Positions 29,140 to 33,771 of a stretch of 64,000 bases of DNA are shown piece after piece. The notes below the pieces were generated by a model. The model was not told the origin of the DNA. It saw only the letters and a list, made by a program, of their open reading frames with translations, and did no database searches. Every line of letters begins with the position of its first letter. Within the stretch, counting starts at the first letter, position 1. The translations under genes and the position numbers were made by a program. Source of the DNA: Nocardia sp. CC227C (lineage in GTDB: Bacteria; Actinomycetota; Actinomycetes; Mycobacteriales; Mycobacteriaceae); the NCBI RefSeq assembly GCF_030767025.1, contig NZ_JASITE010000003.1, forward strand, positions 496,001 to 560,000, in the 5' to 3' direction.

Positions 29140-30678
29140 TCACCGCGCGGCGACCCGTCGCGACCGCCGTTCCGGCTCGGAATGCTCGGGGAGCCGGTCG
29201 AACCGATAGTCGTCCAGGTCGAAGTGACCGGCCCGCCATGCCGCCTCCAGCGTGCTCATCGGCTTGAGCGGCACGTCGCCGTTCTCGTCGAAGTAGTAGC
29301 TGTTCGCCAGTGCGCAGCTGTCCTGCCAGAACACCTGGGTGCCACGGCGATTCAGCATCTCCCGGAAGAAGCGCGCATTGGCCTCCGGCGTGACCTCCGC
29401 CCGGGTCGCCCGCCGCTTCCGCGCGTTGCGCAGCACCCGCAGGATGTGCCGGGTCTGCATCTCGATGAGCGCGAAGTACGACGAGCCATTGTACCCGTAC
29501 GGTCCGATAATGGAGAAGAAGTTCGGGAAGCCGGGCACGCTCACGCCCTCGTAGGCTTGCAGCCGGTTGTCGTCCCACCAGTCCTCCAGCCGCACGCCGC
29601 CGCTGCCGTGCAGGTCGAAGGTCGGCATATTCCCCGATTCCATCACCTTGAACCCGGTCGCCATGATGAGCACGTCGACCGGGTGGTGGTTCCCGCCGGC
29701 GGTGCGCAATCCGGTCTCGGTGATCTCGGCGATCGGATCGGTCTCCAGCCGCACGTTCGACCGGTTGAAGGTGGCGAGGTAGTCGTTGGAGAATCCGGGC
29801 CGTTTGCAGCCGAGGGCGTAGCGCGGCGTCAGCTTGTCGCGCACCTCGGGGTCGTGCACCTGATCGCGCAGGTGGGCCAGTCCGACGCGCTCGCCCACCT
29901 TGGCGATGGGCAGCAGTCCGTAGTAGTGCGCGCTGAGCGGGAAGGTCAGTTCGACGAAGGTCTGACTGGCGAGCCGGGTGAGCAGGCGGCCCCCGGGCAG
30001 CCCCATCAGCAGGCGGACGGCCCCGGGCAGTTCCCGGTCCGGTCGCGGCAGACACCAGATGGGGGTGCGCTGGAAGACGGTCAGATGCGCGACCTCCGGC
30101 GCGATCTCCGGAATGATCTGCACCGCCGAGGCCCCGGTGCCGATGATGCCCACGCGTTTGCCCCCGAGATCCTGGCCGTGGTCCCAGCGCGCGGTGTGCA
30201 TGACGATCCCGGAATACCGTTCCACCCCCGGGATATCGGGCAGTTTGGGCCGGGTGAGCACGCCGGTGGCCCCCACCACCCAGCGCGCCGTGATCTCCTC
30301 GTCCGCGCTGGTGCGCAGGCGCCACAGGTGCAGGTCGTCGTCGTAGTCGGCGCGGGCGATGGTGGTGCCGAACCGGATCCGCGGGCGCAGCCCGTACTTG
30401 CCGACGCAGTATTCGGCGTACGCCTTCAGTTCCCGGCCGGGCGCGTAGATCCGGGACCAGCCGCGCTGCTGTTCGAACGAGTACTGGTAGCTGAACGACG
30501 GAATGTCCACGGCGATGCCGGGATAGGTGTTCCAGTGCCAGGTGCCGCCCACGCCGTCGGCCTCGTCGACGATCAGGAAGTCGTCGAAGCCGTGCTCGCG
30601 CAGCATGATCGCCACGCCGATGCCGGAGAATCCCGCACCGATGATGACGATCTGGTGGTCGACGACGCTTGCGTTCAT
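29140..30678 (-). CDS. Baeyer-Villiger type flavin monooxygenase
   Basis: The 512-residue enzyme has the FAD motif I-I-G-A-G-F-S-G-I-G (about residues 11-20), the BVMO fingerprint Y-S-G-I-V-M-H-T-A-R-W-D (about 155-166; F-x-G-x-x-x-H-x-x-x-W with Tyr for Phe), the NADPH motif V-G-I-I-G-T-G-A-S-A (about 176) and the linker M-A-T-G-F. It inserts oxygen next to a ketone carbonyl to form esters or lactones. It is the last gene of the SDR/ferritin-like/BVMO-like/BVMO operon. The ATG at 30678 overlaps the preceding stop (ATGA), so it is translationally coupled to the BVMO-like subunit. Confidence 0.92.
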   Translation of the reverse strand: MNASVVDHQIVIIGAGFSGIGVAIMLREHGFDDFLIVDEADGVGGTWHWNTYPGIAVDIPSFSYQYSFEQQRGWSRIYAPGRELKAYAEYCVGKYGLRPRIRFGTTIARADYDDDLHLWRLRTSADEEITARWVVGATGVLTRPKLPDIPGVERYSGIVMHTARWDHGQDLGGKRVGIIGTGASAVQIIPEIAPEVAHLTVFQRTPIWCLPRPDRELPGAVRLLMGLPGGRLLTRLASQTFVELTFPLSAHYYGLLPIAKVGERVGLAHLRDQVHDPEVRDKLTPRYALGCKRPGFSNDYLATFNRSNVRLETDPIAEITETGLRTAGGNHHPVDVLIMATGFKVMESGNMPTFDLHGSGGVRLEDWWDDNRLQAYEGVSVPGFPNFFSIIGPYGYNGSSYFALIEMQTRHILRVLRNARKRRATRAEVTPEANARFFREMLNRRGTQVFWQDSCALANSYYFDENGDVPLKPMSTLEAAWRAGHFDLDDYRFDRLPEHSEPERRSRRVAAR

Positions 30679-31241
30679 GAGGTCTCCTCGGCGTAGATGA
30701 CGCAGTCCACCCGATGCTCGATACCGTCCACGGTCCGGATGCCGTGCGGTGCGAGCCGGGCGATCGGCCAGGTGATGAGCCGGACGTGGGGACGGTGCAG
30801 CGCCCGGTAGTAGTGGTTGTGGCAGGTGACCGGGGCGGGTGATTCCGGGGTCAGTTGGCGGCGGGTCCACGAATCCGGCACCTGGAGGCGCAGATTCGCG
30901 GCGGCGGCCCGGCGGGCGAGTCCGAAGGGCAGCAGTCGCGCCACCGTGGCGGCCGCCGCGGTGAGGTACGGCAGCGGCGGGCGCGGCAGCACCCACACCG
31001 GATCATGTTGGAAGACGGTGACTTTCCGGGCGCGCTCGGCCACCCTGGGTAGCACCCGCGCGATCGCCGCCGCGCTGCCTATCACCGCGACCCGCGCTCC
31101 GTCCAGCGGTAGTTGGTCGGTCCACCGGTCGCAGTGCAGCTGCGGCCCGGTGAAGGAGTCCGCACCGCGCGGTGGGCGTGCCCCGCCGCCCCGTGCGCCC
31201 CAGTCGGAGAACGCGTCCACCCGGGCGGCCGCCGCGTTCAT
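30675..31241 (-). CDS. BVMO-like fragment lacking FAD domain, coupled subunit
   Basis: The 188-residue protein aligns with only the middle of BVMOs: the NADPH Rossmann strand (V-A-V-I-G-S-A-A-A-I-A-R-V-L-P), then V-T-V-F-Q-H-D-P-V-W-V-L-P-R-P, and the region just before the A-T-G-F linker (V-D-C-V-I-Y-A-E-E-T-S-stop). It has no FAD-binding domain and no fingerprint. The nucleotide motif is G-S-A-A-A instead of G-T-G-A-S-A. It overlaps both neighbours by four bases (ATGA at each end), which is unusual for a decaying gene and suggests that it is expressed. It may be a non-catalytic partner of the downstream BVMO. Alternatively it is a truncated duplicate. Confidence 0.75.
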   Translation of the reverse strand: MNAAAARVDAFSDWGARGGGARPPRGADSFTGPQLHCDRWTDQLPLDGARVAVIGSAAAIARVLPRVAERARKVTVFQHDPVWVLPRPPLPYLTAAAATVARLLPFGLARRAAAANLRLQVPDSWTRRQLTPESPAPVTCHNHYYRALHRPHVRLITWPIARLAPHGIRTVDGIEHRVDCVIYAEETS

Positions 31242-32161
31242 TCCGCCACCGGTTCGTAGGTCAGCTCCTGGGACCAGGACGGCACCCTGCCGAGCATCCG
31301 CACCGGGAACCGGTCGATGACCCGTCCGAGTCCGTCGTTCACCGCCTGCAACGGTTGCAGTCGGTTGATGGTGGCGCGCCCGTGCAGCCGCACCACGTGA
31401 TAGAGCGGCACCCGTTTGATGCTCGGGCTGCGCTCCCCGGCTTTCTCGTAGCGCCGCACCGCATTCCAGAGCTTCTCCTCGTCGAGCCCCATGGCCATGA
31501 TGTTGGCCGACATGCGCGACAGCAGCGGGGTGTACACCAGCGCGCCGAGCAGCAGGGTGGGGCGCAGCGTGTATCCTGCCGTTTCGATGGCGATGCGGCG
31601 CAGCGGGCCCGCGCCGAGCTGTTCCAGCACCTGGAAGCCGACGGCGAGGTGTCGCGACTCGTCGCTGTTGATGTGCCGGAACACCTTGTGGCACAGCGGG
31701 TCCCGGACCTCGTCGAGCAGGAACTTCACCAGCGCGCCGTCCAGCGCGCATTCCAGCGAGGGTATGACGGTGGCGAGCACCGGCAGCGAGAGGTCGTCGG
31801 AGTAGCGGTCCACCCATTCGATGACGAGCCGGATGTTCTTGTTGGGCACCGGCATGGCGTCGCCGTCGAGCATGCCCCAGCGTCGCATGAGCGCCAGTTC
31901 CGCATTGGCGTGCTTCTGCTCCTCGGCGTGGAAGTAGCGGTAGATCTCGCGCAGCGATCCGGGCGGCGCTTTGCGGGTGAGGGCCGCGAAACCGCGCGCT
32001 CCGACGTGTTCGATCCACACCAGATCGGCCATGAACGCGGCCAGTGTCGGCCGTTGTTCGTCGGTGACGAGGTCGGCTCCCGGTGCGTCCCAGTCGATAT
32101 CGGCCAGTGCCCACTGGCGGTCCCGGATGGTTTCCAGCATGTCCGGATAGGCGAACGCCAT
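31238..32161 (-). CDS. Ferritin-like di-iron protein
   Basis: The 307-residue protein is mostly helical with di-iron-type motifs: W-I-E-H-V-G-A-R-G-F (about residues 49-58), Y-F-H-A-E-E-Q-K-H-A-N-A-E (about 77-89) and I-N-S-D-E-S-R-H-L-A-V-G (about 166-177). The repeated E-x-x-H pattern fits a ferritin/ribonucleotide-reductase-like carboxylate-bridged iron site. Two hydrophobic stretches (about 190-215) could contact membrane or lipid. It sits between the SDR (12-base gap) and the BVMO-like gene (four-base overlap). A hydroxylase or desaturase-type role feeding the SDR and BVMO is plausible but inferred. Confidence 0.75.
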   Translation of the reverse strand: MAFAYPDMLETIRDRQWALADIDWDAPGADLVTDEQRPTLAAFMADLVWIEHVGARGFAALTRKAPPGSLREIYRYFHAEEQKHANAELALMRRWGMLDGDAMPVPNKNIRLVIEWVDRYSDDLSLPVLATVIPSLECALDGALVKFLLDEVRDPLCHKVFRHINSDESRHLAVGFQVLEQLGAGPLRRIAIETAGYTLRPTLLLGALVYTPLLSRMSANIMAMGLDEEKLWNAVRRYEKAGERSPSIKRVPLYHVVRLHGRATINRLQPLQAVNDGLGRVIDRFPVRMLGRVPSWSQELTYEPVAE

Positions 32162-32173
32162 TGTTCGGCTCCC

Positions 32174-33013
32174 TTATCGGCGCGCCAGCCTTTCGATGAG
32201 TCCGGCGGCGCGGGTGTACGGAACGGGCAGCAGCCGCTTGGACTGCCAGATGAGCTTGGCCTCGACCTGCGGCACCACGTAGAGCTGGCCGCGGTCGACG
32301 GCGTCGAGGGTTTCGCGGGCGATATTCGCGGGCGGGCGTCCGGTCCAGCGCAGCAGCAGATCGCCGAGCCGCGCGGTGGACGGGTCGTCGATGGCGGCGT
32401 TGTCGAGGATGTGGGTGCGAACCGCCGTGGGGCACAGCGCCGTGACGGTCACCCCGGTGCCGACCAGTTCCGCGGCGAGGGTTTCCGACAGTGCCAGCAC
32501 GCCCGCCTTGCTCACGTTGTAGGCGGCCATGCGCGGTGCGGAGCCGAAGGCGGCGGCGGAGGCGGTGTTCAGGATGGCCCCGTGCCCGCCTGCGCGCATG
32601 CGGGGTGCGAAGACGTGGCAGCCGTGGACGACGCCCCACAGGTTGACGTCGAGCACCCGATGCCATTCGGTGAGCGGCGCTTCGCCCACGGGTGCGCCGC
32701 CCGCGCCGATTCCGGCGTTGTTGCAGACCAGGTCGGTGGGATTGCCGAACCACTGTTCGGCGGTGTCGGCGAGGGCGGCCACCTGTTCGGCGCTGCCCAC
32801 ATCGCAGTACACCTCGAAACCCTTGCCCCCGGCCTGACCGACCAGTTCGACGGTCTCGCGGGCGGTGTCGGTGTCGATGTCGGCGCAGACCACGCGCCCG
32901 CCGCGGCGGCCCAGTTCGACGGCCAGCGCGCGGCCGATGCCGCTGCCCGCGCCGGTGACCACCGCGTCCGCGTACCTGGTGCGGCGGGATCCGCCGAAGG
33001 GGTTGAGTCGCAT
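32174..33013 (-). CDS. Short-chain dehydrogenase/reductase of the BVMO operon
   Basis: The 279-residue classical SDR has the cofactor motif T-G-A-G-S-G-I-G (about residues 20-27), C-A-D-I-D-T (aspartate favouring NAD), N-N-A-G-I-G, and the catalytic Y-N-V-S-K (Tyr near 165). The C-terminal extension is basic. It is the first gene of the operon. It could oxidise an alcohol made by the ferritin-like protein to the ketone substrate of the BVMO, a common logic for hydroxylase-SDR-BVMO routes; this order is inference. Confidence 0.9.
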   Translation of the reverse strand: MRLNPFGGSRRTRYADAVVTGAGSGIGRALAVELGRRGGRVVCADIDTDTARETVELVGQAGGKGFEVYCDVGSAEQVAALADTAEQWFGNPTDLVCNNAGIGAGGAPVGEAPLTEWHRVLDVNLWGVVHGCHVFAPRMRAGGHGAILNTASAAAFGSAPRMAAYNVSKAGVLALSETLAAELVGTGVTVTALCPTAVRTHILDNAAIDDPSTARLGDLLLRWTGRPPANIARETLDAVDRGQLYVVPQVEAKLIWQSKRLLPVPYTRAAGLIERLARR

Positions 33014-33058
33014 GGGAACTCCCGAAGCCGAGCGCCGCGACCGCTCAACTGGTGTCAC

Positions 33059-33086
33059 CTGCCACCATTGGCCGCGCCTGCCACCA
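33059..33086. promoter_or_regulatory. Direct repeat between BVMO operon and tetR
   Basis: CTGCCACCA occurs at 33059-33067 and 33078-33086, 19 bp apart. The second copy overlaps the -35 position of the tetR promoter. They lie in the 104-base divergent region and are candidate TetR half-sites. A GGTGTCACC palindrome precedes the first copy. Confidence 0.5.
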
Positions 33087-33104
33087 ATTAGGCGCTCGAT
33101 GGGG

Positions 33105-33120
33105 TAATTTGTCAATGATG
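33105..33120 (+). promoter_or_regulatory. Candidate leaderless promoter of tetR
   Basis: The -10 hexamer TAATTT (33105-33110) ends seven bases before the ATG at 33118. This spacing favours 33118 over the adjacent in-frame ATG at 33115. Confidence 0.55.
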
Positions 33121-33771
33121 AACGTGCGCGCACCGGCCCGGACCTGGGGTGGCCGAACCCCGGAGGAACGCCGTGCGCAGCGCCGCCGCAAGCTCATCGC
33201 GGCCGGACTCGCGATCTGGCTGGACCACGGCTGGGCCGCGGTCACCATGCGCGGCGTGTGCACCCGCGCCGCCCTCAACGACCGCTACTTCTACGAGCAT
33301 TTCGCCGACCGCGACGAACTGCTCGGCGCGGTCTGGGACGAGGTGTGCTTCGAGGTCTTCGGCGAACTGTCCGCGGTCGTGGCCGAGCATCTGGATCGGA
33401 CTCCGCTGGAGATCCTGCGGCTGGCCGTCACCCGTGCCGTCGATCTGCAGACCCACGGGCACGCGCGCATCCTCTTCGACAACCACGCGGGCAGCCGGGT
33501 GCTCGAGGAACGCCGCAAGGCCACGCTCGGCGATTCCACCGATCTGCTCATCGCCACCGCCCGGCCGTATCTGCGGCCCGGGGTGGACGAATCCGATTTC
33601 CGCATGAGCGTTCTCATGGGCATAGGCGGTTTCAACGAACTGCTCTCCGCCTGGCGCACCGGGGCCGTCGAGGCCGATGCGGAGCGGATCATCGACCACG
33701 CCAGCCGGGTCGCCACCCTGCTCGGAACGCAGTACCTCGATCCCGCGGCCATCGCCGCCGACCGCGAGTAG
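33118..33771 (+). CDS. TetR family regulator of the BVMO operon
   Basis: The 217-residue TetR has an N-terminal helix-turn-helix with a variant recognition segment V-T-M-R-G-V-C-T-R-A-A-L-N-D-R-Y-F-Y-E-H-F (about residues 41-61). The C-terminal ligand domain is helical. It is divergent from the SDR that opens the BVMO operon, and the CTGCCACCA repeats lie between. It most likely represses the operon until the substrate or an intermediate binds. Confidence 0.9.
   Translation: MNVRAPARTWGGRTPEERRAQRRRKLIAAGLAIWLDHGWAAVTMRGVCTRAALNDRYFYEHFADRDELLGAVWDEVCFEVFGELSAVVAEHLDRTPLEILRLAVTRAVDLQTHGHARILFDNHAGSRVLEERRKATLGDSTDLLIATARPYLRPGVDESDFRMSVLMGIGGFNELLSAWRTGAVEADAERIIDHASRVATLLGTQYLDPAAIAADRE

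Follow-up and report, generated by a model that had tools for sequence, protein, structure and literature searches.

The window, i.e. the whole 64,000-nucleotide stretch of Nocardia sp. CC227C DNA that was analysed, carries a minus-strand operon of four genes and a divergent regulator gene. The operon begins with an SDR-family oxidoreductase gene (32174-33013; 279 aa), followed by the genes for a ferritin-like protein (31238-32161; 307 aa), for a short protein related to Baeyer-Villiger monooxygenases (BVMOs) (30675-31241; 188 aa) and for a full-length type I BVMO, here called BVMO-B (29140-30678; 512 aa). The TetR-family regulator (218 aa) is encoded on the plus strand at 33115-33771. Coordinates, lengths and strands are as given in an earlier note on this sequence, and the four-base ATGA overlaps that it reported between the short gene and both neighbours are present. 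Direct repeats of the TTGGTGGCA type, together with an inverted arm of the CACCAATT type, stand in the divergent intergenic region (33014-33114) and were conserved with small variations in the nine loci compared; lying between the SDR and TetR genes, they are a possible TetR operator.

The ferritin-like protein is of the diiron type by sequence: the E, ExxH, E, ExxH ligand pattern (E51, E81xxH84, E137 and E168xxH171 in the window), common to AurF-type and other ferritin-superfamily diiron proteins, was invariant in 69 of 69 sequences. Its match to AurF is weak: the window member scored 24.7 bits against the Pfam family (PF11583), under the gathering cut-off of 29.6, and a match at E ≤ 0.01 was obtained for 38 of 44 members. 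A sequence search of the PDB gave no credible natural relative, and the structure model, built from three sequences (from the window and L038-L040), had a mean pLDDT of 34, too low for use.

The single domain encoded by the short gene

The short protein aligns to a solved cyclohexanone monooxygenase (E = 3.2e-16) over two stretches, its residues 26-88 with 156-218 of the enzyme and its residues 111-184 with 297-379, which we take, from the domain limits, to lie in the NADP domain. This agrees with the earlier description of the protein as the middle, NADP part of a BVMO; the FAD domain is absent, whether judged from the sequence, from Pfam or from the cyclohexanone monooxygenase alignment, and the glycine-rich loop of the FAD domain is absent with it. 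The Pfam search with the short protein gave no match at E ≤ 1 and the NCBIfam search only matches far below cut-off. Six such proteins ('shorts') scanned against Pfam either had no match or scored below the cut-offs, and proteins of this kind could be dismissed as fragments during annotation.

The two BVMO fingerprints are [A/G]GxWxxxx[F/Y]P[G/M]xxxD and FxGxxxHxxxW[P/D], as they appear in an excerpt of PMC4498894. The first was found in none of the 43 Nocardia shorts, against 25 of 25 sampled sequences of BVMO-A, the full-length enzyme described below. As to the second, located at 31122-31154 on the minus strand (residues 30-40), the window's copy F30-W40 (FTGPQLHCDRWT) fits every position except the last; [FY]xGxxxHxxxW occurs in 21 of the 43 Nocardia shorts and the full motif, including P/D, in two. 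The loss of the fingerprint, as claimed earlier, is thus true of the first, but the second is mostly retained (FTGPQLHCDRW, without the final P/D). The active-site Lys-Arg motif G[CPS]KR and the ATG motif were each seen in 0/43 Nocardia shorts versus 25/25 BVMO-A, and the coenzyme-binding arginine after FQ in 2 of the 42 shorts scored versus 24/24 BVMO-A scored. Compared with type I BVMOs such as cyclohexanone and phenylacetone monooxygenase (~500 aa), the shorts are small (165-262 aa in Nocardia) and lack the FAD domain, the first fingerprint, G[CPS]KR and the ATG motif; what the window's copy shares with these enzymes is the sequence of the NADP domain and the larger part of the second fingerprint. 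By alignment and tree it descends from a BVMO. A structure model of the short protein (four sequences: the window and L038-L040) had a mean pLDDT of 51, too low for use as a whole, with residues ~31-80 forming a strand-helix-strand unit of moderate confidence.

Origin from full-length BVMO-A

In 18 of 18 non-Nocardia loci, a full-length BVMO, BVMO-A, lies directly behind the ferritin-like gene. Fifteen of them (type-1 loci, L118-L132) have a ferritin near that of Nocardia in the tree; an SDR match was found upstream in 14 of the 15, and a BVMO-B-like gene (60-65% identical) behind BVMO-A in nine. A second set of 40 non-Nocardia ferritin loci, hand-picked among the matches listed to cover several genera, had a full BVMO-A directly downstream in 37; it was absent there in the three others, so that the ferritin-like protein is not always accompanied by the NADP domain. 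BVMO-A is found for instance in Mycolicibacterium aubagnense (NZ_AP022578.1) and M. chubuense NBB4 (NC_018022.1), and an SDR-ferritin-BVMO operon was assigned by gene order in Tsukamurella tyrosinosolvens (NZ_LR134464.1). A match on a Rhodococcus gordoniae plasmid proved to be a BVMO with no ferritin-like gene next to it.

In the tree the shorts nest inside BVMO-A, apart from BVMO-B and BVMO-C. The BVMO-A of the SDR-ferritin-BVMO operon, which occupies the same slot, is closest to them and differs in being full-length and in keeping the above motifs. The Nocardia shorts group as one clade with a long stem branch, at a support of only 64 (and 56 for BVMO-A plus shorts, both read after re-rooting). 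Since full-length BVMO-A holds the slot in related genera, and since the ATGA overlap with the ferritin-like gene is already present in relatives with a full-length BVMO-A, the short gene is, on the evidence of gene order and phylogeny, a shrunken BVMO-A in a slot that was ancestrally full-length. The junction with the ferritin-like gene therefore predates the shrinkage: it was inherited, and is by itself no evidence for a new role. According to the earlier note, its proposal would fail if most relatives carried a full-length BVMO at this position or if the short gene showed stop codons and frameshifts. The former applies outside Nocardia; within Nocardia, a full-length BVMO occupies the slot in none of the 43 readable loci of this ferritin type, and the short genes there showed no stop.

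The same fragment was found behind the ferritin-like gene in three species of another genus, g29 (G469, G578 and G611), and in one genome of a third genus, g26 (G174), the only one representing reduction in g26. They came from searches with the short protein, the ferritin not being used as query, and amount to at least four genomes outside Nocardia among the matches listed; more may exist. A ferritin-like gene adjoins every reduced copy found. A single origin of all shorts is ruled out, because the node joining them (support 80) includes 18 full-length BVMO-A, and the ferritin tree agrees: the ferritins of G469 and G174, the two tested, fall outside the clade of the Nocardia ferritin. BVMO-A apparently shrank separately in three lineages. 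That related bacteria made the same reduction independently suggests a non-catalytic job for the leftover domain. One further locus, L205, contains a broken BVMO-A, full-length in two frames, and was excluded from the shorts.

Ferritin-like protein and BVMO-B as candidate partners

This type of ferritin is present in 45 of 150 Nocardia genomes, and 43 loci were readable. In all 43, the short gene follows the ferritin-like gene with an open frame, and none has a full-length BVMO in its slot, a regularity beyond chance. The overlap is -4 at the ferritin-like/short junction in 42/43 loci and at the short/BVMO junction in 38/43. An assembly or annotation artefact is ruled out by the identical arrangement in 43 genomes, and a FAD half hidden upstream in another frame by the ferritin-like gene, which occupies that space.

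The explanation that we tentatively favour, at a little under an even chance, is that the short protein is a non-catalytic domain reduced from BVMO-A and kept to dock to the ferritin-like protein, the partner being what we infer. Starting from a full-length BVMO-A whose gene overlapped the ferritin-like gene, the lineage of the Nocardia version lost both FAD half-domains and ~30 internal residues (as counted in the window's copy). The active-site Lys-Arg motif went as well and, in almost every copy, so did the coenzyme-binding arginine. Selection has kept the domain core since then, presumably because docking stabilises or regulates the ferritin-like protein. The earlier note had suggested a regulatory or structural partner of the BVMO or of the ferritin-like protein: a non-catalytic role fits, but the BVMO is the less supported partner and the ferritin-like protein the better option, given that in G469, G578, G611 and G174 the short gene adjoins a ferritin-like gene and the 11-13 kb of sequence covered contain no other BVMO.

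That the short protein instead serves the adjacent BVMO-B, as its non-catalytic subunit or its regulator, for instance in a mixed dimer, is unlikely. BVMO-B does adjoin the short gene in the Nocardia loci read, mostly with the overlap described above, BVMO-A and BVMO-B are neighbours in the nine type-1 loci already mentioned, and the four genomes in which the short gene stands without another BVMO do carry BVMO-B-like genes (62-67%) at other places. However, besides these four unlinked copies, the coupling to BVMO-B has been lost in four Nocardia loci (BVMO start at +64 in L063, L066 and L067, and at +124 in L062) while that to the ferritin-like gene persists, and in M. aubagnense BVMO-A and BVMO-B do not overlap, being ~50 bases apart.

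Individual residues speak both for and against docking to the ferritin-like protein. W125, C153 and W158 are absent from the sampled BVMO-B (19) and BVMO-C (8); 95-100% of the Nocardia shorts retain them, as do the shorts L140 and L141. Among the positions typical of BVMO-A as opposed to BVMO-B, eight are kept and nine lost in the Nocardia shorts, a split which weakens the docking argument; as 33 other kept positions are common to BVMO-B, much of the conservation may reflect the fold alone.

Selection on the short gene and its meaning

Purifying selection acts on the core of the short gene: over 17 disjoint species pairs, its dN/dS had a median of 0.17 and a maximum of 0.41. Across 45 short sequences, 29 columns are invariant, start included. 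Stops, frameshifts or a neutral dN/dS, as expected of a pseudogene, were not found in the 43 Nocardia copies, which bears out the earlier remark that decaying genes usually look different. A slowly decaying relic, open by chance or because of a recent origin, therefore seems improbable. It would account for the long stem branch, for the weak constraint on tails and linker (dN/dS ~0.4, few values) and on the g29 copies (0.30-0.56), for the existence of a broken BVMO-A (L205), and for a core dN/dS above the 0.075-0.13 of the neighbour genes (usable rows: 39/43 loci for BVMO, 42/43 for SDR and ferritin; of the 17 pairs, values were obtained from 13 for BVMO and from 16 for SDR). Yet in neutral simulation from four copies, even with indels excluded, only 10-17% were still open once 0.3 substitutions per site had accumulated, and the same fragment was kept in three separate lineages.

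Quite improbable, too, is retained binding of NADP(H) or another nucleotide, by which the short protein would sense redox state or metabolites on behalf of the ferritin-like protein. The glycine-rich loop GxGxx[G/A] fits 16 of the 38 Nocardia shorts scored and the modelled strand-helix-strand unit would suit such a function, but 40 of the 42 shorts scored have lost the FQ-arginine, no FAD domain is there to accept electrons, and the loop reads GSAAAI in the window's copy, with irregular forms in L140 and L141. The GSAAA loop stated earlier is thus confirmed for the window's copy; among its relatives the commonest form is GSGAAA (14 of 38 loops scored). Lastly, a translational relay, in which the frame is kept only to pass ribosomes from the ferritin-like gene to BVMO-B, is very improbable: the -4 overlaps on both sides would serve it, but it requires an open frame rather than an amino-acid sequence, whereas the core is conserved as protein, and no BVMO follows the short genes of G174 and the three g29 species.

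In the titles and abstract openings among the literature matches listed, where subscription journals were little covered, there was no mention of a BVMO NADP domain standing alone or of an operon combining a BVMO with a ferritin-like gene, and no reason was found there for the ferritin-like/BVMO gene overlap seen in many mycobacterial relatives.

Pseudoenzymes such as the prozymes of trypanosomes are non-catalytic partners derived from enzymes. Like them, the short protein is an inactive homologue kept by selection; unlike them, it is a single domain, and the neighbour that it keeps most constantly is a diiron-type protein unrelated to it rather than the parent enzyme. Should it indeed dock to the ferritin-like protein, it would clearly exemplify the conversion of an enzyme into a non-catalytic partner via repeated domain loss. 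A broader proposal, possible though doubtful, is that the ferritin-like diiron protein and BVMO-A act together in an undescribed oxygenase or assembly of two proteins, with the NADP domain as docking face; the rest of BVMO-A would have been discarded at least three times, the docking domain being kept as a separate, non-catalytic subunit of the diiron protein. The repeated reduction of a BVMO to one domain amounts to a natural deletion experiment, which points to a possible contact face and to the residues that may form it.

The short gene and its operon in Nocardia

In the window, the SDR, ferritin-like, short and BVMO genes all lie on the minus strand, facing a divergent TetR gene, and the short gene (30675-31241) overlaps the ferritin-like gene at one end and the BVMO (29140-30678, BVMO-B) at the other through ATGA junctions. 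By sequence match, its 188-aa product aligns with solved BVMOs over the NADP-domain part only, in two blocks. A Pfam scan with it gave no family at E ≤ 1; other shorts, i.e. its relatives elsewhere, matched the FMO-like model with scores under the cut-off. The earlier note took the BVMO fingerprint to be lost and overlooked the second of the two, which is present as FTGPQLHCDRW, minus the final P/D. The window's nearest named relative found, N. otitidiscaviarum NBRC 14405, has a short protein 96% identical to this one.

A ferritin-like gene of the window's type is carried by 45 of 150 Nocardia genomes (at least 79% identity, the next best matches being at 60%). Two of these loci are unreadable, either because the short gene is split across two contig ends (G045) or because the contig stops just past the ferritin-like gene (G110). 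The short gene stands directly behind the ferritin-like gene in all 43 others (window counted), encodes 165-262 aa and never has an internal stop (0/43). In 42 loci, its start sits at -4 relative to the ferritin-like stop; the same -4 spacing links its own stop to the BVMO start in 38 (not in L062, L063, L066, L067 and L077). The sole exception to the first junction is L077 (G044:C45), where a single in-frame TGA precedes the usual ferritin-like end; there, the adjacent BVMO is also in two frames, close to the contig end. These disruptions are either real or sequencing errors. The two conserved halves of the L071, L073 and L081 shorts are joined by an enlarged, weakly conserved linker (total protein length up to 262 aa).

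Origin from full-length BVMO-A

Outside Nocardia, a full-length BVMO, here BVMO-A, occupies the slot behind the ferritin-like gene in 18 of 18 ferritin loci. Fifteen of these, L118-L132, which include near-identical loci and so are not all independent, have a ferritin that branches near that of Nocardia in the ferritin tree, and in 9 of the 15 a BVMO-B relative (60-65% to the window's BVMO) then follows. Named examples of ferritin plus BVMO-A are plasmids of Mycolicibacterium aubagnense and M. chubuense NBB4, on which BVMO-A starts 4 bases inside the ferritin-like gene end. Among 40 further non-Nocardia loci, hand-picked across several genera, BVMO-A is full-length and next to the ferritin in 37, with a possible -4 start in 30 of these; the three without downstream BVMO-A (L153, L167 and L169) all belong to genus g19. 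In a tree of 97 sequences and 159 columns, the Nocardia shorts form one group (support 64) nested in BVMO-A. Since BVMO-A holds the same slot elsewhere and the shorts branch within it, the short gene is a reduced BVMO-A that has inherited its coupling to the ferritin-like gene.

The window's genome also has a second SDR-ferritin-BVMO operon, with full-length BVMO-A and without short gene (L084, G000:C5:420500-432500, minus strand). In two Mycolicibacterium plasmid operons (L138 3766-12558 and L188 6134-14921), the ferritin-like gene is followed by genes for three NAD(P)/FAD-dependent oxidoreductases, an alpha/beta hydrolase and a P450; these operons perhaps serve ketone or alkane breakdown.

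Reduced copies in other genera

The short protein and a profile of 45 shorts were each searched against 401 genomes of the family. Among the matches listed, the non-Nocardia short open frames were those of G469 (genus g29) and G174 (genus g26, of which this single genome was examined), both directly behind a ferritin-like gene. A search of 297 g29 genomes brought the short form to at least three species (G469, G578 and G611), all with the order ferritin, short, MerR-like (called by motif). The fetched stretches around these three shorts contain no further BVMO, and the sole SDR match nearby is distant (27%) and more than 3 kb upstream. The order in G174 is likewise ferritin, short, MerR-like; that of L203, also from g29, is SDR, ferritin, full BVMO-A, MerR-like, and that annotated in Tsukamurella is SDR, ferritin, BVMO, MerR. 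Among the ferritins, the tree joins the G469 gene to L146 and L147 (0.999), both loci with full BVMO-A, and the G174 gene to L084 and L087, Nocardia's second ferritin locus, also with full BVMO-A. Because these ferritins group with different full-BVMO-A loci, the reduction probably happened separately at least three times, always ending on the same domain. Constraint is weaker on the g29 shorts (dN/dS 0.30-0.56 versus 0.07-0.09 for their ferritins, three pairs).

In another locus, L205 (G585:C2:633500-644500), the ferritin-like gene is intact and the BVMO-A that follows it is split into two pieces lying in different frames; this may be what real BVMO-A decay looks like.

Constraint, retained residues and possible role

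For 17 disjoint pairs of related species, the median dN/dS of the short-gene core (residues 28-91 and 110-184) was 0.17 and the highest value 0.41, with the linker near 0.4 (6 values). Medians for the neighbours were 0.075 for the ferritin-like gene (17 pairs), 0.13 for the SDR (16) and 0.12 for the BVMO (13). When four short copies were evolved neutrally in simulation, without indels, 10-17% were still open at 0.3 substitutions per site. Given the low core values and the few frames surviving simulation, the short gene is constrained at the protein level, less so than its neighbours.

The G[CPS]KR and ATG motifs are each absent from 43/43 Nocardia shorts and present in 25/25 BVMO-A, and the arginine after FQ is gone in 40 of 42 scored shorts and present in 24/24 scored BVMO-A; in BVMOs, these positions serve catalysis and NADPH binding. 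Of the positions conserved in BVMO-A, 20 are lost in the Nocardia shorts (including 9 that are rare in BVMO-B as well), 33 are retained and common to BVMO-B, and 8 are retained and rare in BVMO-B (V74, W125, Y145, L148, C153, W158, E175 and I181). As most retained positions are common to BVMO-B, what the shorts keep appears to be mostly the fold. The 8 others, all present in the further short copies L140 and L141, could mark a family-specific docking patch; only W125, C153 and W158 are absent from sampled BVMO-B and BVMO-C (a further BVMO group) alike. The ferritin-like protein has the ligand pattern E51, E81xxH84, E137, E168xxH171, invariant in 69/69. Its AurF match is weak (38/44 members at E ≤ 0.01, the window protein under the cut-off), and a PDB sequence search gave no credible natural match, the top one being a designed helix bundle.

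Every reduced copy found adjoins a ferritin-like gene whereas the neighbouring BVMO is not constant, so that the most economical reading is one of docking: BVMO-A would touch the ferritin-like protein via its NADP domain, and lineages no longer needing BVMO-A catalysis at this locus would have kept the docking domain alone. Against it count the BVMO-B-like genes found elsewhere in the four genomes whose short has no neighbouring BVMO, and the few ferritin loci without BVMO-A. Enzyme-derived partners that have lost activity are already known. The titles and abstract openings searched, mostly outside subscription journals, gave no description of a stand-alone BVMO NADP domain or of this operon; as far as this search goes, a variant in which a single domain is repeatedly all that is left, next to an unrelated diiron-type protein, is new.

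Upstream of the operon, the divergent SDR/TetR intergenic region (33014-33114) has an arrangement, TAATTGGTGGCAGG...CCAATGGTGGCA...CACCA(A/G)TT, which is conserved, though slightly varied, across the 9 loci compared and is a possible TetR operator.
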